From positions 62,001 to 126,000 of the forward strand of contig JAETQI010000004.1 of NCBI GenBank assembly GCA_021770755.1: a DNA stretch of 64,000 nucleotides, in the 5' to 3' direction. This document shows positions 25,482 to 34,395 of this stretch, one piece after another; positions within the stretch are counted from its first letter, which is position 1; every line of letters starts with the position of its first letter. Under the pieces are notes generated by a model. The model was not told where the DNA came from and made no database searches. It saw only the letters and a program-made list of their open reading frames with translations. A program made the translations under genes and the position numbers. This DNA is from Lachnospiraceae bacterium (GTDB lineage Bacteria; Bacillota; Clostridia; Lachnospirales; Lachnospiraceae).

Positions 25482-25817
25482 ATGACGCGTGAACATTTTA
25501 TCTGTTTCGATCTGGGATTCAGGGTAGATGACAGAACGGAATTTTATAACAGGCTGGTCAGCCTGTTTGGCGTGGGCGGGACAGTGTCCAGAAACAGGAG
25601 GGGCGAGGTGCTGGATTTCAGCATATTGACCGACCAGGGGGTATTGCGCATGGGAAGCAGCAACAACACGCTGGAGTTAAAGCTCGACAGCTCTGATTCC
25701 GGGGTGATCGTCACGGCTTCACAACTGAACGCACTGCATGACCAGCTCAAAGCGCATCTGGGGATCGTCAAGGATTATCCGTGGTACATCAGGGTGGTAA
25801 ATGTGTATCGGATGTGA
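25482..25817 (+). CDS. Small protein of unknown function
   Basis: A 111-residue soluble protein starting TREHFICFDLGFRVDDRTEF; no family recognised. The sequence alternates short strands and helices (VLDFSILTDQGVLRMGSS, ASQLNALHDQLKAHLGIV), suggesting a compact alpha/beta domain, without membrane or signal segments. A good ribosome-binding site (GGGGAGG) precedes ATG 25482. It lies 45 bases after the Uma2 gene and 26 bases before an ATPase-nuclease gene, so it is probably in their operon. Confidence 0.7.
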   Translation: MTREHFICFDLGFRVDDRTEFYNRLVSLFGVGGTVSRNRRGEVLDFSILTDQGVLRMGSSNNTLELKLDSSDSGVIVTASQLNALHDQLKAHLGIVKDYPWYIRVVNVYRM

Positions 25818-25843
25818 TGTATTGACAGGGGAGGTTGCCGGGA

Positions 25844-27451
25844 ATGAGACGATATTTTAATACAGAGGGAGCCTGCAGGCCGCAAGAGCACTATATGGTA
25901 GCGCTGGATCAAAGGCTGGAACAGATCAAAACGATGCTGGTTGACAGGAAAAAGTATTTTGTGATTAACAAGGGGCGCCAATATGGCAAGACAACGACGC
26001 TCAGGGCGCTGGCAAAATATCTGCAAACGGATTATTTTGTGTTCTTGCTGGATTTTCAGAGGATCGGAACAGAGGACTTTGTGGCGGCGCCGGCATTTGT
26101 CCGCGCTTTTGCGGAGATCATGATCGAGAGGGCAGGGATCATGGGTTCGGACAGCGAGGAGCAGCTTGCCGAACCGCTGTCTCAACTGATAAAAGGTTCG
26201 GACGATGTCAGCCTGAAAGAACTTTTTACACAGTTGAGCAGGATGTGTGCGAGAGCACCCAAACCGATCGTGCTGATGATCGATGAGGTAGACAGCGCGT
26301 CCAACAATCAGGTGTTTATCGACTTTCTGGCGCAATTGAGGGCATATTACCTCGACCGCGATGAGACGCCGACATTCCACTCGGTGATCCTTGCAGGAGT
26401 GTATGACATCAAGAACCTGAAATTAAAACTGCGCAGGGAATCGGAGCATCAGTACAACAGTCCGTGGAATATCGCGGCAAGCTTTAAGGTCGATATGAGT
26501 TTTTCTGCAAGTCAGATCGCAGAGATGCTGGCAGAATACGAATCGGATCGTCACACAGGAATGGATATACAGGAGATGGCAGGAGAAATCTATCAGTATA
26601 CATCTGGCTATCCGATACTTGTCTCGTCAATCTGTAAATATATTGATGAGGAACTTGCGGATGGAGACTTTTTCGAAGATCTGGGTAAGGCATGGACGAA
26701 GGCAGGGATCGAGGAAGCTGTCAGGCGTATCCTGACAGACAGGATGCCTTTGTTTGAGAGTATGATCCGCCATCTTGATGAATATCCTGAGATGAAGCGG
26801 ATGTTCCAGTCCATGCTCTTTCAGGGAAAAGAATTTGCGTATAACCAGGACGTGAAGGAGATCAGCCTTGCCGGAATGTTCGGCTATGCAGTCAGCCAGT
26901 CGGGGAAAGTGTGTGTGGCAAACCGCATCTTTGAGACACGCCTGTACAATTACTTCCTGTCGGAGACAGAACTAGCAGGTCCTGAATCGTCCAAGGAGAT
27001 CGGCGACATGGCAAGGCGGGACAGGAGCCGTTTTATCCGTGACGGGAGACTCGACATGGATACTGTGATGCGGCGGTTTGTCGAGGCCTTTACAGACATT
27101 TATGGGGAGGAAGATGCGAAGTTTGTCGAGGCGTACGGTCGCAAGTTCTTCCTGCTCTACCTGCGGCCGATCATCAACGGAACAGGCAACTATTATATCG
27201 AAGCGCAGACAAGGGATGAGCGGCGCACGGACGTCATTGTGGATTATCTCGGGGAGCAGTTTGTCATCGAGCTCAAGATCTGGCGCGGGAGTGAGTACAA
27301 TGAGCGCGGTGAGCGGCAGCTAACGGATTACCTGGATTACTTTCACAAAAAGAAAGGATATCTGCTCAGCTTTAACTTTAACCAGAAGAAAGAGATCGGG
27401 GTGAAGGAGCTGCAGATCGGGGATAAGACGATCGTTGAAGTGGTCGTGTAG
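25844..27451 (+). CDS. AAA-type ATPase fused to a PD-(D/E)XK nuclease domain (first)
   Basis: A 535-residue protein. The N-terminal AAA domain has Walker A NKGRQYGKTTTL (about residue 45) and Walker B IVLMIDEVDSAS; a helical region follows (YTSGYPILVSSICKYID), as in STAND/AAA_14-like ATPases. The C-terminal 100 residues carry a nuclease-like core TDVIVDYLGEQFVIELKIW with the D-x9-E-x-K pattern. The start is ATG 25844, 9 bases after GGGGAGG. The role is unknown: such proteins spread as paralogous families in Clostridia and Bacteroidetes and are thought to be nucleic-acid-acting or selfish. A fragment closely matching its last 25 codons is found at 34212-34286. Confidence 0.82.
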   Translation: MRRYFNTEGACRPQEHYMVALDQRLEQIKTMLVDRKKYFVINKGRQYGKTTTLRALAKYLQTDYFVFLLDFQRIGTEDFVAAPAFVRAFAEIMIERAGIMGSDSEEQLAEPLSQLIKGSDDVSLKELFTQLSRMCARAPKPIVLMIDEVDSASNNQVFIDFLAQLRAYYLDRDETPTFHSVILAGVYDIKNLKLKLRRESEHQYNSPWNIAASFKVDMSFSASQIAEMLAEYESDRHTGMDIQEMAGEIYQYTSGYPILVSSICKYIDEELADGDFFEDLGKAWTKAGIEEAVRRILTDRMPLFESMIRHLDEYPEMKRMFQSMLFQGKEFAYNQDVKEISLAGMFGYAVSQSGKVCVANRIFETRLYNYFLSETELAGPESSKEIGDMARRDRSRFIRDGRLDMDTVMRRFVEAFTDIYGEEDAKFVEAYGRKFFLLYLRPIINGTGNYYIEAQTRDERRTDVIVDYLGEQFVIELKIWRGSEYNERGERQLTDYLDYFHKKKGYLLSFNFNQKKEIGVKELQIGDKTIVEVVV

Positions 27452-27560
27452 GAGGTCTGGTTTTCCGTTGCGCCCATATAAAAACATGATATCATAATAA
27501 AAGAACACCAGTCAGGAGGCAGCGGATATGTCTCCTGTATCTGTAGAGGAGGGCACTTGT

Positions 27561-29264
27561 ATGAAATACAGACCGCTTCCGATCGGCATCAGCGATTTTG
27601 CTGAGATGATCCAGAAAGAATTTTACTATGTGGACAAAACCCCGATGATCAAAGAGCTTTTGGACAATCAGGCCAAGGTGACGCTCTTCACGCGTCCGCG
27701 CCGTTTCGGAAAGACGCTCAATATGAGTATGTTAAAGTACTATTTTGAGGACGACAGGGACTGGCAGGGAAACAGGCGCGACTGGTCGGATCTGTTTGAC
27801 GGACTTAAGATCATGGAGGCAGGGGAATCGTATCTTGCCCACAGAGGGCAGTATCCGGTGATCTATCTGACGTTTAAGGATTCTAAGCGGGAGAGCTTTG
27901 AGCGGTCATACACAGAGATGGTCAGAGTCATTGCGGAGGAATTTGGGCGTCACAGATTTGTGATTGAATTTCCGGAGATGGAAGAATGTAGGGAAAAGTT
28001 CTTGAAGATCATGCGCCGGGAGGGCAGTCAGAATGATTATGAGACAGCGATCCTGTTTCTTTCGAAATGTCTTGAAATATATTATGGCAGAAAAGCGGTC
28101 GTGCTGGTCGACGAGTATGATGTTCCGCTGGAGAATGCGTTTACGTGTGGTTTTTACAATGAGATGGTCAATTTTATCAGAGCATTATTTGAGAGCGGCT
28201 TAAAGGACAATACGAGTCTCGCATTTTCAGCGATCACGGGCTGTCTGCGGGTGTCAAAGGAGAGTATTTTTACAGGTCTGAATAATTTAAATATTGTTTC
28301 CGTCAGAAGTACCGGTTTTGATGAGTACTTTGGATTTAAGGTGGATGAGGTGGAGAAACTGTGTCATTATTATGACCTGGATGACAAATATGACACAGTT
28401 AAAGAGTGGTATAATGGCTATACATTTGGTCAGACGGATATTTATAATCCATGGAGCGTGATCAAATATATATATGACGCACGGCCAAACCATGACTGGC
28501 TGCCAATGTCTTACTGGGCGAATACTTCCTCGAACAGCATCGTAAAAACGCTGATCGACCGGGCTGGCGACGAGGAGCGGGAGAAGATCGAAACGCTGCT
28601 GGCGGGCGGTACGATCGTGATACAGATTCATGAGGATATCACATACAACGAGATTTACGATGAGGGTGACAACCTGTGGAATTTTATGTTTTTCACGGGA
28701 TATTTCCGCAAGGTCAGGGAATGGATGGAAGGGACAAAGATCTTTGCAGAGCTTACGATTCCAAATAAAGAGGTACTGTATATTTTTGAGCAGAAGATTC
28801 AGAAATGGTTCCACGAAAAGCTAAGAGGCAGGGACATGCACCCGCTTCACGATGCCGTGATCACGAAGGACTGTGCCGTGATGGAGGAGGAGATCAACGA
28901 TATCTTTGAGGAGACCATCAGTTATATGGATCAGAATGAATACTATTATCATGGGATGATGGCTGGTCTTTTGACGGGGATCAAGGGTTATACGGTGCGT
29001 TCGAACAGGGAGGGCGGAAAAGGGCGCAGCGATCTTCTGGTGAAACCGGTCCGCCGGAGCAGGGAGGCGTTTGTCATCGAGTTCAAGGTCACGAAGGATT
29101 TTGAGGAACTGGATCAGAAGGCGGACGAGGCGATCCGGCAGATCGAGGATCGGAAGTATGAGATGGCGCTCAGGAATGACGGATACAAATATATCAGCTA
29201 TTACGGCATCGCATTCTGCGGCAAGGAGTGCGTGGTGCACTGCAGGCCGTATGAAGCCGGATAG
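27561..29264 (+). CDS. AAA-ATPase-like protein with DUF1703 PD-(D/E)XK domain (second)
   Basis: A 567-residue member of the AAA-ATPase_like/DUF1703 family, opening KYRPLPIGISDFAEMI then YYVDKT, Walker A TRPRRFGKTLNMSML, Walker B VVLVDEYDVPLENA, and a C-terminal nuclease-like core with SDLLVKP and FVIEFKVTKDFEEL. ATG 27561 follows GAGGAGGG; the in-frame ATG at 27528, behind CAGGAGG, is also possible and would add 11 residues. These large families expand within gut Firmicutes and Bacteroidetes genomes; their biological role is unknown. Related in plan, but not closely in sequence, to the gene just upstream. Confidence 0.88.
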   Translation: MKYRPLPIGISDFAEMIQKEFYYVDKTPMIKELLDNQAKVTLFTRPRRFGKTLNMSMLKYYFEDDRDWQGNRRDWSDLFDGLKIMEAGESYLAHRGQYPVIYLTFKDSKRESFERSYTEMVRVIAEEFGRHRFVIEFPEMEECREKFLKIMRREGSQNDYETAILFLSKCLEIYYGRKAVVLVDEYDVPLENAFTCGFYNEMVNFIRALFESGLKDNTSLAFSAITGCLRVSKESIFTGLNNLNIVSVRSTGFDEYFGFKVDEVEKLCHYYDLDDKYDTVKEWYNGYTFGQTDIYNPWSVIKYIYDARPNHDWLPMSYWANTSSNSIVKTLIDRAGDEEREKIETLLAGGTIVIQIHEDITYNEIYDEGDNLWNFMFFTGYFRKVREWMEGTKIFAELTIPNKEVLYIFEQKIQKWFHEKLRGRDMHPLHDAVITKDCAVMEEEINDIFEETISYMDQNEYYYHGMMAGLLTGIKGYTVRSNREGGKGRSDLLVKPVRRSREAFVIEFKVTKDFEELDQKADEAIRQIEDRKYEMALRNDGYKYISYYGIAFCGKECVVHCRPYEAG

Positions 29265-29274
29265 AGAAATGAAT

Positions 29275-29306
29275 GGCGGAACAGTCAGGGCTGTTCCGCC
29301 AGTTTT
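29275..29306 (+). terminator. Bidirectional terminator between convergent genes
   Basis: GGCGGAACAG (29275-29284) pairs perfectly with CTGTTCCGCC (29291-29300), with a T-run after it on the plus strand. The right arm doubles as the last codons of the helicase gene on the minus strand. Confidence 0.82.
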
Positions 29307-30826
29307 TTCATGCATGTCCAGTAATTTCTTTCCCGGGTGGATCCCGCATGAGAGATATGCTGTTCGATCACATTTATTTCAGCCGTCCAGTCTGCGCGGA
29401 CGGAGCCAAGATCCAGACAGTGTATCGCCTCCTGGATCTTATTTTCCGCCAGACCGGCATGCTGCATCCGCTCCAGCATCTTCGATGCTTTTTGTACATA
29501 GCGGGAATTGTAGAACATGCCTGTGTCCGGCCGGTATTCCAGGTCAAAGATACGGTTTCCTTTTGTGTCCGGAAGAAAACAGGAATCTTCCGACGATTCT
29601 GTGATGTGCAGGTAATACAGGGATGCTGTTTCTTTCCCTTCCTTTTTGCGGATGATCCTGCCGAGGCGCTGGATCCGCTGGCGCTGGGTCGCGGTGCCGG
29701 ACAGAATGATGCCGACGGCGGCATCTGGTACGTCGACGCCCTCATCGATCGCTTTGCAGGCGATCAGGATCCGGATATCACCCAGCCGGAAGCGCTCCAG
29801 GGCATTTTTGCTGGCCTGCGGTCCGAGTTTGGAATGGCAGCGTGCCACTTTGCCAGGGTACAGGTCGTGCAGGCGTTTATACAATGCCTCGGCCTGACGG
29901 ATGCGCTCGCCGAATATCAGTATCTTGTCCTTTATGCCCAGATACTGGATCAGGTCACAGGTGCAGTCAAGCCGCCCGGCCGCCATGCAGACCAGACTTT
30001 TTCTGATGTAGGACAGGCGCATATACTGGCGGGCAGTGTCTGCGATCTGCCTGTCCTTGTCCCCGGTGAGGCTGCGCAGCAGCTCAAAGCGCTCCTTCTG
30101 GTCGAGGCTGTCGAGGATCGGATAGGATGAGCGCAGGGTGAAATACAGGATGGACATGCGGTCAGAGAGCGTATCATATTCGATGCGCTCATTGCGCTCG
30201 AAGGAGAGCCCGATGTGAAAGATATCAAATGGACATACAGTGCGCCGTGCTGCGGCCGTATCCATTCCATAGCTGTAGACCCTGCGTCCAAGTGCTGCGG
30301 CAAGCTCATGCCCTGCCTGACCGGAGGGCAGGGTAGCAGACAGTCCCAGTGAGAAGAAGCGGTCTTTGTAGGGCGTGATGTGCGGCAGGAACTCGAAGAT
30401 AAGTTGATTCTGTCCGCTTACATAGTGGTGGCATTCATCTGCGATGAGCAGTACGGATTTTCCGTCGCGGAGTTCTGCCAGGATCTGACGCGCGAGTGTA
30501 TAGCGCGCCGAGTTGATCACATAGATCATGTATCTGCAGTCCGATGGGGAGCGGTATCCTCCTCCGCGCAGACCGATACTTGCCGGGGAGCTGTCATCGC
30601 CGTGAAAAGATTTTAGGGCGCGCTTCCACTGATGCATGAGTGTGCTGGTCGGAACGACGATCCTGACGTACAGGTCCAGGTCTGTCCGCAGTGACAGACG
30701 CGCTGCTGCGGTGAGTGCCAGCAGCGTCTTGCCGGATCCGGTCACGGCCTGTACCATGCCCCTGCCGCTGTTGGAAAACCACCGCTCGAGGCATTCCTCC
30801 TGCCATTGGTATAGTTTTTGTTCCAT
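29285..30826 (-). CDS. DEAD/DEAH-type superfamily 2 helicase of the divergent cassette
   Basis: A 513-residue SF2 helicase of the SSL2/RadD-like group: Q-motif-like YQWQEECLERW, Walker A QAVTGSGKTLLAL (residues 26-38), motif II IADECHHY (DECH at 130-133), motif III LGLSATLPSG, and motif VI RIQRLGRIIRKKEG. The start is placed at minus-strand base 30826 behind AAAGGA, because a promoter at 30906-30879 excludes the longer 541-residue form. It is divergent from a coiled-coil protein and two BrxD-like ATPases, with promoters back to back. A helicase next to BrxD-type ATPases recalls BrxHI-BrxD of type 2 BREX, but the methylase and PglZ are absent. Confidence 0.9.
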   Translation of the reverse strand: MEQKLYQWQEECLERWFSNSGRGMVQAVTGSGKTLLALTAAARLSLRTDLDLYVRIVVPTSTLMHQWKRALKSFHGDDSSPASIGLRGGGYRSPSDCRYMIYVINSARYTLARQILAELRDGKSVLLIADECHHYVSGQNQLIFEFLPHITPYKDRFFSLGLSATLPSGQAGHELAAALGRRVYSYGMDTAAARRTVCPFDIFHIGLSFERNERIEYDTLSDRMSILYFTLRSSYPILDSLDQKERFELLRSLTGDKDRQIADTARQYMRLSYIRKSLVCMAAGRLDCTCDLIQYLGIKDKILIFGERIRQAEALYKRLHDLYPGKVARCHSKLGPQASKNALERFRLGDIRILIACKAIDEGVDVPDAAVGIILSGTATQRQRIQRLGRIIRKKEGKETASLYYLHITESSEDSCFLPDTKGNRIFDLEYRPDTGMFYNSRYVQKASKMLERMQHAGLAENKIQEAIHCLDLGSVRADWTAEINVIEQHISHAGSTRERNYWTCMKKLAEQP

Positions 30827-30878
30827 GGTTCTGTCCTTTGCTGTGATCGTTTGATTTCTTGACACATGTATTACGGTC

Positions 30879-30943
30879 ATTATATCAAATTTTGTATTTA
30901 TTTCAAACAATATGTTGAAAAAATGTTCTGTTTCTTATATACT
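30879..30943. promoter_or_regulatory. Back-to-back divergent promoters
   Basis: Leftward: TTGAAA (30906-30901), 16 bases, TATAAT (30884-30879), for the helicase. Rightward: TTGAAA (30915-30920), 17 bases, TATACT (30938-30943), for the coiled-coil/ATPase genes. The two -35 boxes lie 8 bases apart as TTTCAA-N8-TTGAAA, so one bound protein would affect both directions. Confidence 0.72.
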
Positions 30944-30946
30944 TTT

Positions 30947-30963
30947 ATGGAAGGATTTTCCAT
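30947..30963. promoter_or_regulatory. Palindrome at the rightward start of transcription
   Basis: ATGGAA-N5-TTCCAT at 30947-30963 overlaps the expected +1 of the rightward promoter. It could be an operator or a small 5' hairpin. No regulator gene is seen in the cassette. Confidence 0.4.
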
Positions 30964-31087
30964 GTTCTGGAAGAATCTGAGTCTGCGGAATAACTGGATC
31001 AGAATGTTCCGGCAGTGTTGAGAGACAGGCGTCAGGGCATATGGATGGGAAAAAGACTGGTATGCGTGCAAGCGAGGAGGTATACGA

Positions 31088-31861
31088 ATGAATTATGAAG
31101 ATTTTTATCAGGAACTACAGCCGCAGCAGAAAAGTGTGAAGGACGGGCTAGCTTCCCTGCAGAAACTGTTTAAGGCAGTCAGCCGCGAGCTCGAGGGCGG
31201 TGATGTCAAGAACCTTGCAAAGGATCTGGAGGCGATGGCGCAGTCGGCTGCGGCGGTCTCTGAGTCCGTCGATGCCATGAGGACAGCGGCGGACGGATTT
31301 GATGCGAAGGGATATTTTGAGAGCGGGGAATTTGCGGAGCAGATGCTTGCAGCCTGCGCGGAAAAGGGTGTGGATGTCCGCGGGGAATTTCCGGTCTATG
31401 AGATGTTTCCCTACCGCGTGAGGCTGGATGCAGAAAATCAGGACGTCTATATGGACCGCAGGAAAGTGCAGTGCATGCGCCCGGGAAGCTTTGTGGAGAT
31501 CGTCAGGAGCGGACAGGAGAAGCTCAACAAGGCATCGTTTAACGCCGTGGCATTTGCCAGTGAGCTGGCGGACGCCTATGATCTGGCTGTCCTCAAACTC
31601 GACAGGCAGAAGCAGTCGGATATTTATCTGACGAGTCTGTACAAGATACTGGCGCCGATGAGCCGTTTCAGGAAGGATTATGACCAGCAGAGCTTTGCGT
31701 TTGACCTTGCAAGGCTGTATATTTCCGGCATAGAGGAGACGAAAAACGGAAGAAAGTTCCAGTTTGGTCCCAGCCGGGTTGGCGGGAAAGGGATCCGTAT
31801 ATTGGACATGGCAGGAAAGGAACAGTTTCTTGCGACGATCCGGTTTTTTGAAGCTGAGTAG
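31088..31861 (+). CDS. Coiled-coil protein of unknown function, first gene of the ATPase cassette
   Basis: A 257-residue soluble protein without recognised family. Residues 10-80 are strongly helical with heptad-like spacing (SLQKLFKAVSRELEGGDVKN, LAKDLEAMAQSAAAVSESV), predicting a coiled coil. The central part FPVYEMFPYRVRLDAEN then VYMDRRKVQCMRPGSFVEIV looks like a beta-rich DNA- or protein-binding module. GAGGAGG precedes the ATG. It is 20 bases ahead of the first BrxD-like ATPase, behind the rightward divergent promoter, and so is presumably a core component or adaptor of the same system. Confidence 0.75.
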   Translation: MNYEDFYQELQPQQKSVKDGLASLQKLFKAVSRELEGGDVKNLAKDLEAMAQSAAAVSESVDAMRTAADGFDAKGYFESGEFAEQMLAACAEKGVDVRGEFPVYEMFPYRVRLDAENQDVYMDRRKVQCMRPGSFVEIVRSGQEKLNKASFNAVAFASELADAYDLAVLKLDRQKQSDIYLTSLYKILAPMSRFRKDYDQQSFAFDLARLYISGIEETKNGRKFQFGPSRVGGKGIRILDMAGKEQFLATIRFFEAE

Positions 31862-31881
31862 GCAGATGAGGGGGACAGGTT

Positions 31882-33036
31882 ATGGCGGAAGAGGTTGAAA
31901 AATGCGGGATTTCTTTTCTCGCTGATTTCTGGCAGGAAAAATATCTTCGGGAATATATCAGGAACGGCGGCAGCAAGATCAAGTTTGTGACAGGGCGGCA
32001 GGGAAGTGGAAAAACGCATTTTCTGAAACTGATGACAGCAGTTGCCAGGGAAGAGGCGTATAAGACGGCACAGTTTTCGGCAAGGGATATCTGGCTTCAT
32101 GATTTTAAGGATATCTATGTGGAGATCCTCCAGCAGTGTGACATTATGGGGTGTCTGGAGGCGGTCAGCCATCAGTTGATTGAACAGATGGGGTTCCGCC
32201 ATCAGGACATTCCGGAGGGGATGCGGTTTATCGATTATCTCTCCCAGAACGATTCGAGCGATGCGATCACCAAACGTGAGATCCGTTCCCTGCTGCGGAA
32301 GATCTTTTTGGACGATCCACTGATGGACAACAATTTTGCGCTGGCGTGCAGTATGCTCACAGGAAGCATCCTGGGGTATCCCGTATTGGAAGAACAGAAC
32401 AGGGAACTGCTCCTCGCGTGGCTGGAGGGCGATCGTTCCATAAAGCTGTCCCAGCTACGTGCGCTGGATTTTTATCCCAGCCGGATCACGAAATACAATG
32501 CGAGACACATGCTCCGTTCTCTGGCGGAGCTGGTACATATGGGCGGATATTCCGGCCTGTTTGTCACGATCGACGATGTGGAGATCCTGACCAGCCGTTC
32601 CAGCCTGGAACCAGTGCACTACACAAAGGTAAAGCGGGAAGACACCTATGAGAGTATCCGCCAGTTGATCGATGATATCGACAGCATGAAAAATATCATG
32701 TTTGTGTATGCTTTTGACCGCGAACTGCTCGACAACGAAAATGCCGGGATCAAATCGTATCAGGCGCTGTGGATGCGGATCCAGAATGAGATCGTGGGGG
32801 AGCGGTTTAACCGTTTTGCCGACATGGTCGACATGGACCGTCTGGCAGCGCAGGAATACACGCCGGATGTGATCGTTGCGATATCTGAGTGCATGGCAAA
32901 GTCGCAGGAGGACGCAGCCTATGCCCCGCTGGACCGGGAGACTGCAGGGCAGCTCATAGAACGCGCGCGCATGGGGGCAGTGGGGATTCCGCTGCTGATC
33001 CGGAAGACGATGCAGGGGGTGGATACGGATGTATGA
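31882..33036 (+). CDS. BrxD-like (DUF2791) P-loop ATPase, first copy
   Basis: A 384-residue ATP-binding protein. Walker A is TGRQGSGKTHFLKLM (GxxGxGKT at residues 38-45) and Walker B is LFVTIDDVEIL with D231-D232. The start KCGISFLADFWQEKYLREYI and the region around the P-loop match the DUF2791 family, named BREX ATP-binding protein BrxD. A central EIRSLLRKIF to VHMGGYSGLF stretch also fits this family. It overlaps the next gene, a second member, by 8 bases, so the two are coupled and may form a heteromeric ATPase. GAGGGGG is the ribosome-binding site. Confidence 0.78.
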   Translation: MAEEVEKCGISFLADFWQEKYLREYIRNGGSKIKFVTGRQGSGKTHFLKLMTAVAREEAYKTAQFSARDIWLHDFKDIYVEILQQCDIMGCLEAVSHQLIEQMGFRHQDIPEGMRFIDYLSQNDSSDAITKREIRSLLRKIFLDDPLMDNNFALACSMLTGSILGYPVLEEQNRELLLAWLEGDRSIKLSQLRALDFYPSRITKYNARHMLRSLAELVHMGGYSGLFVTIDDVEILTSRSSLEPVHYTKVKREDTYESIRQLIDDIDSMKNIMFVYAFDRELLDNENAGIKSYQALWMRIQNEIVGERFNRFADMVDMDRLAAQEYTPDVIVAISECMAKSQEDAAYAPLDRETAGQLIERARMGAVGIPLLIRKTMQGVDTDV

Positions 33037-34219
33037 TATAGAAGCGAGACATATGATCGAAGCGCTGCGCTCGGGAGTGCCCTCCCGCGCCGTGGGGCAG
33101 TATTTTTCGGAGGCGCGTCCGAAGATCATGAAGGAAATATCAGAACGGCTCGATCAGGTATCTGAGCAGGGAAGATCGAGCGGTATGGTGATCTGCGGGA
33201 AGTACGGGGAAGGAAAGACGCATCTGCTCAATACCGTGTTCAGCCTTGCCCATTCCAATGAGATGGTCGTCTCATACCTGTCACTGAGCAAGGAGACACC
33301 GATGGACAAGCTCTATCTGGTGTACCAGAAACTGATACAGAATACGTATCTTCCCAGACGTGAACAGCCGGGATTTATGCATGAGGTGGACAAGATATCG
33401 GCGAAAAGCCCGATCGCAAACGAGATGTACCTGTACGCTGCGAAACAGTTGGAGACAGATAAGCTGTACTATCTGTTCCGCTCGTATCTCAACACGGAGG
33501 ATCCGAATGAGAAATTTCTCCTGCAGGCCGATCTTGAGGGAGATTTTGTGGCAAATGCGCCTTTGAAGAAGATCTACCGGCGCATATTTAACGAGCCTGT
33601 GAAATACAATGTCAATTTTACCAAGACAAAGCACTGCGGGGACTATATTTCCTTTATGAGCCATCTGTTTACACAGATGGGGTATCATGGCTGGGTGATC
33701 CTGGTCGATGAGACGGAGCTCATGGGGCGCCTTGGCAAGAAAGCGCGCCTGAACGCATACAGGAATATGGCGAAATTTCTGATGCCGAACCAGTGCCCGG
33801 AATCGACATTCAGCATTTTCGCGCTCAGTGCTTCCTACGTGGAGGATGTGATCGAAGGAAAGCACGAGTACGAAAATCTCGAGGAGGTCTATCCGGAGGA
33901 ACAGGAGCCTGCCAGAGCTGTTCTGGATATGCTGACAAAGGCGCCGCAGTTGCTGCCTCTGACAAAGGATGAGATCAACGAGATCTTGTGTAAGATACAG
34001 GATTTCCATGGCAGGGCGTACGAGTGGACACCCAGTCTGTCCGCCGCTTCGCTGGCGGCATCTACCCAGTCGGGCGGCTATTTGCTGCGCACCAAGATCC
34101 GCGCGGCGATCGAGTTCTTAGACCAGCTCTATCAGTATGGCAGGGCGGGGGATACCACCATCAACGAACTCGGGGAGGAGACCTTTGAGGAAGATATACC
34201 GGTGATCGATGATTTTTAA
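33029..34219 (+). CDS. BrxD-like (DUF2791) P-loop ATPase, second copy
   Basis: A 396-residue ATPase beginning ARHMIEALRSGVPSRAVGQY, the usual N-terminus of BrxD/DUF2791 proteins (IxxLRxGVPPxxxV). Walker A is CGKYGEGKTHLLNTV (GKYGEGKT at 57-64), Walker B is WVILVDETELM with D227-E228, and FSIFALSASYVEDVI is a sensor-like strand. It is the better match to classical BrxD of the two. It starts within the end of the first copy. Its stop codon overlaps a remnant of an ATPase-nuclease gene (34212-34286), marking a recombination joint at the right edge of the cassette. Confidence 0.85.
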   Translation: MYDIEARHMIEALRSGVPSRAVGQYFSEARPKIMKEISERLDQVSEQGRSSGMVICGKYGEGKTHLLNTVFSLAHSNEMVVSYLSLSKETPMDKLYLVYQKLIQNTYLPRREQPGFMHEVDKISAKSPIANEMYLYAAKQLETDKLYYLFRSYLNTEDPNEKFLLQADLEGDFVANAPLKKIYRRIFNEPVKYNVNFTKTKHCGDYISFMSHLFTQMGYHGWVILVDETELMGRLGKKARLNAYRNMAKFLMPNQCPESTFSIFALSASYVEDVIEGKHEYENLEEVYPEEQEPARAVLDMLTKAPQLLPLTKDEINEILCKIQDFHGRAYEWTPSLSAASLAASTQSGGYLLRTKIRAAIEFLDQLYQYGRAGDTTINELGEETFEEDIPVIDDF

Positions 34220-34286
34220 TAAAAAGAAAGAGATCGGTGTGAGGACGATTACACTTGGGGATAAGACGATCGAGGCGGTCGTCTGA
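34212..34286 (+). pseudogene. C-terminal remnant of an AAA/PD-(D/E)XK gene
   Basis: Reading from 34212, the frame gives IFNKKKEIGVRTITLGDKTI then EAVV and a stop. It matches the last residues of the ATPase-nuclease at 25844-27451 (FNQKKEIGVKELQIGDKTIV, EVVV) in protein, and in DNA (GGGGATAAGACGATCG is shared exactly). It has no start and abuts the stop of the BrxD-like gene, so it is a leftover of a related gene lost by deletion. Downstream, a short open stretch (LAELRIKLDVDDTMKEKIEQ and on to 34446) lacks a usual start codon. Confidence 0.72.
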
Positions 34287-34395
34287 AAAGCAAAATACAG
34301 AAGAGGGAATGAACACGCCCTGGCAGAATTAAGAATAAAACTGGATGTTGATGACACGATGAAGGAAAAAATAGAACAGTATTTGAGACGAATTG

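Follow-up and report, generated by a model that had tools for sequence, protein, structure and literature searches.

A CC-A1-A2 gene triad with two BrxD-like ATPases and exchangeable helicase partners in a Lachnospiraceae bacterium and its relatives

A 64,000-nucleotide stretch of the draft genome of a Lachnospiraceae bacterium (assembly GCA_021770755.1, contig JAETQI010000004.1, positions 62,001 to 126,000 of the forward strand; hereafter the window) contains, at positions 29285-34219, a cassette of four genes. One, on the minus strand, encodes a helicase (HEL); the other three, on the plus strand, encode a coiled-coil protein (CC) and two P-loop ATPases of the BrxC/BrxD family (A1 and A2), whose reading frames share an 8-nt overlap. 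A preliminary description of the window had given this layout and these coordinates, which the positions of the open reading frames (ORFs) bear out. The locus raises the question of which of these genes form a unit and what that unit does. Comparison with other genomes indicates that the deeper conserved unit is the CC-A1-A2 triad and that the helicase is exchangeable. The sequences suggest, with a likelihood that we judge to be about even, that the block belongs to a wider family of triads paired with a DNA motor, in which the triad would be an ATP-driven loader or gate for that motor.

Conservation of the block was examined in a first set of 55 loci from one scan seeded with A2 alone, of which 51 are titled Lachnospiraceae, other Clostridia or genera that we take to belong there, three are titled just "bacterium", and one is a Spirochaetales metagenome-assembled genome. 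Gene presence was scored by six-frame profile search at a coverage of 0.75 or more. All four genes are found in 40 of the 55 loci, arranged divergently as in the window in 39; in the other (L053) HEL lies downstream and is co-directional. Named strains with such a four-gene locus include Hominisplanchenecus murintestinalis NM72_1-8 (L016), Parablautia muri D42-62 (L036) and Eubacterium plexicaudatum ASF492 (L037). The 15 incomplete loci include contig ends (L015, L021, L028, L038, L045, L052, L057, L061, L062 and probably L060), broken copies (L017, L047, L049) and remnants (L055, L063), the broken copies and remnants being in draft assemblies where some breaks may be errors. Other gene families occur in no more than 9 of 64 clustered sequences, and the flanks differ between loci. 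The neighbourhood is thus kept in other genomes, as the preliminary description had proposed to check, and these loci support its idea of an accessory unit of four conserved genes, in which the BrxD-like ATPases are doubled and accompanied by a coiled-coil protein. Over 630 pairs from 36 loci, mean identities are 57% for HEL, 68% for CC, 74% for A1 and 82% for A2, which is the most conserved of the four proteins; HEL is the least conserved in 620 of the pairs. Certain ORFs (cluster c17) of L006, L041 and L058, considered as insertions, are antisense ORFs instead, the copies in L041 and L058 having no Pfam match; CC and A1 are whole in L041 and L058 by six-frame search (L006 lay outside that search).

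A CC profile from the first set matches 15 of 398 Bacillota genomes and a broader profile matches 18 of 398, both counts including the window's own genome; in chosen classes the broader profile matches 29/113, 4/20, 5/63 and 18/101 genomes, these genome sets overlapping. Among 63 neighbourhoods counted, which are part of all profile matches, the triad is complete in 57, and in all 57 the order is CC-A1-A2 on one strand. Five of the six incomplete neighbourhoods are cut by contig ends, and the sixth (L146) has a truncated CC alone. A partial match outside the 63 (L226, genome G099) has no triad gene.

The neighbours of the 57 triads were assigned to groups manually, with blastp, PADLOC and Pfam as the basis. 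Most are linked to various DNA motors: a superfamily 1 (SF1)-type helicase in 16 cases, BrxL in 10, an XPB-like superfamily 2 (SF2) helicase in 7 (as in the window), type I cas genes in 6, an SNF2 protein with an extra small gene in 3, a BrxHI-type SF2 helicase in 2, and a SWIM-SNF2 protein plus a Rad50/SMC-type ATPase in one. The SF1-type partner of L132 has Pfam AAA_11 and AAA_12 matches and a zinc-ribbon match just below the cut-off, the other SF1-type partners being assigned by blastp. The last of these arrangements is at L186:2940-14563, where the triad lies between the SWIM-SNF2 helicase and the Rad50/SMC-type ATPase, and the gene that follows is presumably Mre11-like. The neighbour in L138, considered as ZorD-like, is by Pfam an SNF2 protein with DUF3670 and is convergent, and was therefore not counted as a partner. 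The triad also occurs outside the Bacillota, on the Desulfomonile tiedjei plasmid pDESTI.01, where genes for a helix-turn-helix (HTH) protein, CC, A1, A2 and a BrxHI-type helicase (4.1e-87) are consecutive; the two BrxHI-type partners resemble this helicase. The broad profile gives the pDESTI.01 CC 46 bits (E 1.5e-15 in a nine-protein set), but against the first-set profile its hhalign probability is only 41% (E 0.00028). Plasmid unnamed3 of Deinococcus psychrotolerans (L228, 1984-9398) encodes two unknown proteins, a BrxD-like ATPase and a BrxHI-type helicase, and is another variant of the BrxD-BrxHI dyad.

The history of partner exchange was approached with a quick tree of 62 A2 rows, supported by the Shimodaira-Hasegawa-like approximate likelihood ratio test only, with long branches flagged and no BREX (bacteriophage exclusion) or Shango outgroup. 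The XPB-type copies form one group (99). Partner labels require 14 changes for 10 labels, against a shuffled mean of 39, yet BrxL requires three changes and the SF1 type two; partners are therefore clustered, not fixed.

Six triads lie in type I CRISPR (clustered regularly interspaced short palindromic repeats) loci, with cas genes co-directional with the triad: subtype I-D in L085 and L130, I-B in L086 and L131, I-A in L087, and L088 with cas6 alone in the stretch. Judged by ORF ends, cas1 follows the A2 stop closely, starting 2 nt beyond it in L130 and 8 nt beyond it in L131. Repeat arrays are present in L085 (38 repeats) and L131 (40 repeats), whereas the stretches of L086, L087 and L130 showed none. 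On the A2 tree one group (98) unites the six CRISPR copies with L138 and the short contig L154; within it the I-D copy of L130 is sister to the I-A copy of L087 (100), which suggests exchange of the triad between subtypes. A small DUF4282 protein, identified by Pfam in one copy and by blastp in the others, adjoins CC or A2 in two I-D loci (L085:6393-6749 and L130:10273-10674) and in the I-A locus (L087:9783-10148). The truncated CC of L146 (9440-12646), outside the counts, lies without A1 and A2 in an I-B locus, between cas3 and genes that we take to be cas2- and cas4-like. Around the window block, no direct repeats of at least 24 nt within 120 nt, as expected of CRISPR, were found in the 64 kb.

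A1 (31882-33036, plus strand; Walker A GRQGSGKTH, Walker B IDD) and A2 (33029-34219, plus strand; GKYGEGKTH, VDE) match Pfam PF10923 (BrxC_BrxD) at 8.4e-32 and 3.8e-27. In PADLOC, A1 matches BrxD (2.8e-21) better than SngB (PDLC03959, 1.6e-16), and A2 matches SngB at 6e-16 and BrxD at 6.1e-14. The ATPase and helicase motifs of the window copy are intact. Across copies, the Walker A GK[ST] of A2 is intact in 102 of 104, both exceptions being in the A2-seeded first set. That of A1 is intact in all first-set (46/46), SF1-type (15/15), BrxL (8/8) and HTH (3/3) copies, in 7 of 8 unassigned copies and in the three single cases; it is intact in 4 of the 7 other XPB-type copies, the remaining three carrying Arg for Lys, and is missing from both SNF2 copies (L138, L148) and from all six CRISPR-linked copies. 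A further weakly A2-like ATPase is encoded upstream of the complete triad at L193:11997-13448 and L197:10009-11385.

CC (31088-31861, plus strand, 257 aa) belongs to no family above the cut-off in Pfam, PADLOC or NCBIfam, and Foldseek found no similar fold in the PDB at E<=0.001. Its AlphaFold2 model (predicted local distance difference test score 88.9) has a helical hairpin at residues 3-70, which agrees with the earlier designation as a coiled-coil protein; the remainder, which that designation missed, is predicted to be a globular alpha/beta part, the last portion of which (about 152-257) faintly resembles a winged helix.

HEL (29285-30826, minus strand, 513 aa) is an XPB/RAD25-like SF2 helicase or translocase. 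It matches Pfam ResIII (1.7e-20) and Helicase_C (1.3e-16), a profile from 35 homologues matches XPB/RAD25 structures at 1.9e-40, the GxGKT and DECH residues are invariant among the homologues, and no nuclease domain was recognised in it. Its longest ORF (29285-30910) has a TTG start, and translation probably begins at the ATG at 30826, because the longest ORF in each of L009, L011, L012 and L013 starts at the equivalent position and because a promoter-like site (30906-30879) sits upstream of 30826 yet inside the TTG ORF. HEL is adjoined by a co-directional gene for a UvrD-like helicase of some 690 aa in L014, L017, L019 and L022; these neighbours form one gene cluster, with Pfam run on the L017 copy alone.

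Among known systems, one of the closest parallels to the cassette is the BrxD-BrxHI dyad of BREX type 2, in which a BrxD-family ATPase is likewise tightly linked to an SF2 helicase, a likeness extended by the pDESTI.01 triad with its BrxHI-type helicase. In the part of PMC12839542 consulted, BrxD is presented as an ATPase of the ORC-Cdc6 type (ORC, origin recognition complex) that possibly loads BrxHI, and its role in BREX is called uncharacterised. The cassette differs in having two ATPases plus CC and an XPB-like helicase, and PglW and PglX are absent from its four shared genes. A1 and A2, at 72.9 and 50.7 bits, stay below the 350-bit cut-off of the BrxD equivalog NF033438, and BrxHI is not among the best 25 of 44 PADLOC matches of HEL. 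No PglZ was found at the locus; a search of the whole draft genome with PF08665, which matched 2 of 14 known genomes as a control, gave one match, on contig C99, the window being on contig C120. Distinctness from BREX, as claimed earlier, is thus upheld by the locus without PglZ and by the constant four-gene content, and is qualified by the PglZ-domain gene on another contig. That gene (PADLOC PglZ 1.3e-65) lies with an SNF2-type helicase gene in a defence-like cluster (L223, genome G000, about 9600-17150 of contig C99), along with an AAA protein and a nucleotidyltransferase that, from their sequence starts, we take to be OLD-like and CD-NTase-like.

Shango, described in the accessible part of PMC10250203 as a TerB-like protein, an ATPase and a helicase that inhibit phages, is likewise a compact locus that combines a BrxD-like ATPase and a helicase with a small non-ATPase protein; the anti-phage activity is that of Shango. 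The cassette differs in its two ATPases and in CC, which has no TerB match in the sequence models of Pfam, PADLOC and NCBIfam (a more distant fold being possible), and SngC is not among the best 25 of 44 PADLOC matches of HEL. Identity with a BREX remnant or with Shango was rejected on these PglZ, BrxD and TerB results. The best PADLOC match of HEL is PbeA (1.3e-55), a helicase of Pbe/dnd_restrict_1 phosphorothioation restriction, with NCBIfam TIGR04095 at 9.7e-40; the latter score, 136.9 bits, is below the cut-off of 600, the alignment begins at PbeA position 239 and leaves the N-terminal part of PbeA unmatched, and the Pbe models do not match CC, A1 or A2. A term search for BREX, BrxL and ORC gave nothing in the main text of the CRISPR classification of 2025 (PMC12669027), and no description of the triad or of its CRISPR link was found in open-access titles and abstracts or in passages of the papers cited here, most subscription papers and supplements lying outside that scope.

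The divergent promoters proposed earlier correspond to two sigma-70-like, promoter-like sites standing back to back, against a mean of 0.8 sites in shuffled sequence: TTGAAA-16-TATAAT at 30879-30906 (minus strand) would serve HEL, and TTGAAA-17-TATACT at 30915-30943 (plus strand) would serve the CC-A1-A2 operon. Alignment of 36 intergenic regions, one of them from the window, shows conservation of both plus-strand elements (-35 and -10) and partial conservation of the minus-strand -10. Directly after A2, outside the unit, a fragment at 34215-34287 (plus strand, reading NKKKEIGV) resembles the 3' end of the gene at 25835-27451 (44/58 nt identity), so the site has recombined; the scar reported earlier is real, if small, and marks the right boundary of the cassette in its own genome. 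At the cassette ends of 36 loci, terminal or direct repeats amount to 8-11 nt matches, except for a 17-nt direct repeat in L034.

To the left of the block, the window encodes two AAA proteins with PD-(D/E)XK domains (25835-29264). These two genes (25835-27451 and 27528-29264), earlier placed in one accessory island with the block, were rejected as parts of the cassette: they are not conserved neighbours, their clusters recurring in 4 and 8 of 64 sequences, the window included. CC is present in 8 of 60 related genomes, its own included, all within the genus. The block adjoins pepF, which has a match in 36 of 38 genomes of the genus (own included, a few through a distant paralogue alone). In G002, about 93 bp separate pepF from the homologue of window positions 25482-25817, compared with 8.6 kb in the window, where the two AAA/PD-(D/E)XK genes and the block occupy the site; G002 has a CC copy on another contig, and G012 has the block at the same site as the window. 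No cassette genes were found by ORF comparison in the other 19 pepF stretches read. Variable presence between related strains, anticipated earlier, is therefore seen both in the genome counts and in this shorter site of a congener. A survey of the flanks covered 127 genes lying no more than two genes away from the block (131 from 40 loci, four omitted for size). Among the best 25 of 122 Pfam families, the commonest are ABC transporters and AraC-type regulators (5 each), UvrD-like proteins (4), and MatE, PLD-like and AAA-ATPase_like proteins (3 each); among the best 25 of 43 PADLOC families at 1e-15, mad3 has 5 members, DrmC 2 and the other 23 one each. A defence island does not emerge from this survey, in which, without a control set, few of the 127 genes match defence models.

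The function most likely for the triad, judged from co-location, is to load or gate a DNA motor in an ORC/BrxD-like manner, with a probable role in defence against phages or plasmids. The triad fits the logic of BrxD and Shango, by analogy, with a second ATPase, a scaffold and many motors added; since it stands beside different DNA-moving machines, CRISPR operons included, it may be a shared helper part for immune motors. CC, A1 and A2 would form a physical complex, the ATP-driven loader or gate, which would recognise some DNA feature of an intruder and place or activate a DNA motor there. In the window the motor would be the XPB-like SF2 translocase under its own divergent promoter, and because no nuclease was recognised in the unit, action would be through translocation (protein stripping, replication stalling) or through handover of DNA to host nucleases. 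Of the earlier notion of an ATP-driven DNA-surveillance system, the conserved unit distinct from BREX type 2 is upheld, and its defence role stays at the level of inference. More tentatively, and with a probability clearly short of even, the triad might be a general licensing module of prokaryotic immunity, in which an ORC-like ATPase pair and a winged-helix scaffold would load or gate any paired motor (XPB-type, SF1-type, SNF2, BrxHI-type, BrxL or Cas3), and which would be an unrecognised component of some I-A, I-B and I-D CRISPR-Cas systems, one ATPase being a non-hydrolysing partner.

Several observations weigh against a loader or gate for immune motors. Twelve of the 57 triads are not counted as motor-linked (three beside HTH genes, one beside Hsp70, one beside a convergent SNF2, one unresolved, L197, and six unassigned, of which three sit on contigs of about 3 kb). 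The similarities to DnaI and DnaA are weak and, like the winged-helix matches, within the range of chance. No relatives of the window A2 were found in phage records and no A2 relatives in viral contigs; plasmids gave one record for the window A2 (22% identity) and four for the CRISPR-type A2 (26-28.5%), with the triad shown in pDESTI.01 alone. Among the families listed, the Lachnospiraceae flanks are mostly metabolic, transport and regulatory, and these copies seem, without a control set, to be scattered among ordinary genes and not in defence islands.

Such flanks would suit a role in genome maintenance, in which CC-A1-A2 and a helicase would rescue stalled forks or repair DNA and spread as accessory fitness genes; XPB-like, SF1-type and SNF2 partners, the L186 copy, flanked by genes for an SNF2 helicase and a Rad50/SMC-type ATPase, and three triads near which no motor was recognised (L183, L185, L189) agree with it, but the patchy presence (18 of 398 Bacillota genomes, own included), with broken copies and remnants, and partners such as BrxL and cas operons, which are immune, make it rather unlikely. 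That the triad of CRISPR loci serves spacer acquisition and not a motor, travelling with cas1 and cas4 and preparing DNA for integration while stand-alone cassettes are derived or parallel, appears less probable again: in L085, L086, L130 and L131 the first cas gene found downstream of A2 is cas1, and the I-D cas1 of L085 is 78% identical to the I-B cas1 of L131, but the stretches fetched for L087 and L088 showed no cas1, L088 having cas6 next, and for 51 of the 57 triads no cas locus was assigned within the stretch read.

We give very little credence to a divergent BREX or Shango locus that has lost its other genes. The PF10923 ATPases, with BrxD and SngB as best PADLOC matches, the BrxHI/SngC-type helicase beside the pDESTI.01 triad and the PglZ gene elsewhere in the genome would accord with such loss; opposed to it are the complete four-gene set of 40 of the 55 loci, to which no other widely shared gene is added, the lack of PglZ on the window's own contig and of a TerB match in CC, and the single group of XPB-type copies in an A2 tree that held no BREX or Shango rows. 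A chance neighbourhood of unrelated genes, for which the ordinary flanks and nothing beyond them could be cited, is refuted by the 57 triads in constant order and by 39 divergent four-gene blocks in 55 loci.

How immune helicases find foreign DNA and start on it is poorly understood. Even with a role in repair, the triad would be a bacterial helicase partner of ORC-like type, of a kind for which no description was found in the part of the open-access literature covered. The triad family is in any case a natural comparison set for BrxD. If the triad is indeed a loader or gate for immune motors, an unstudied component would be added to three subtypes of type I CRISPR, and a module that keeps its three genes while swapping its motor would make a common loading step directly testable.

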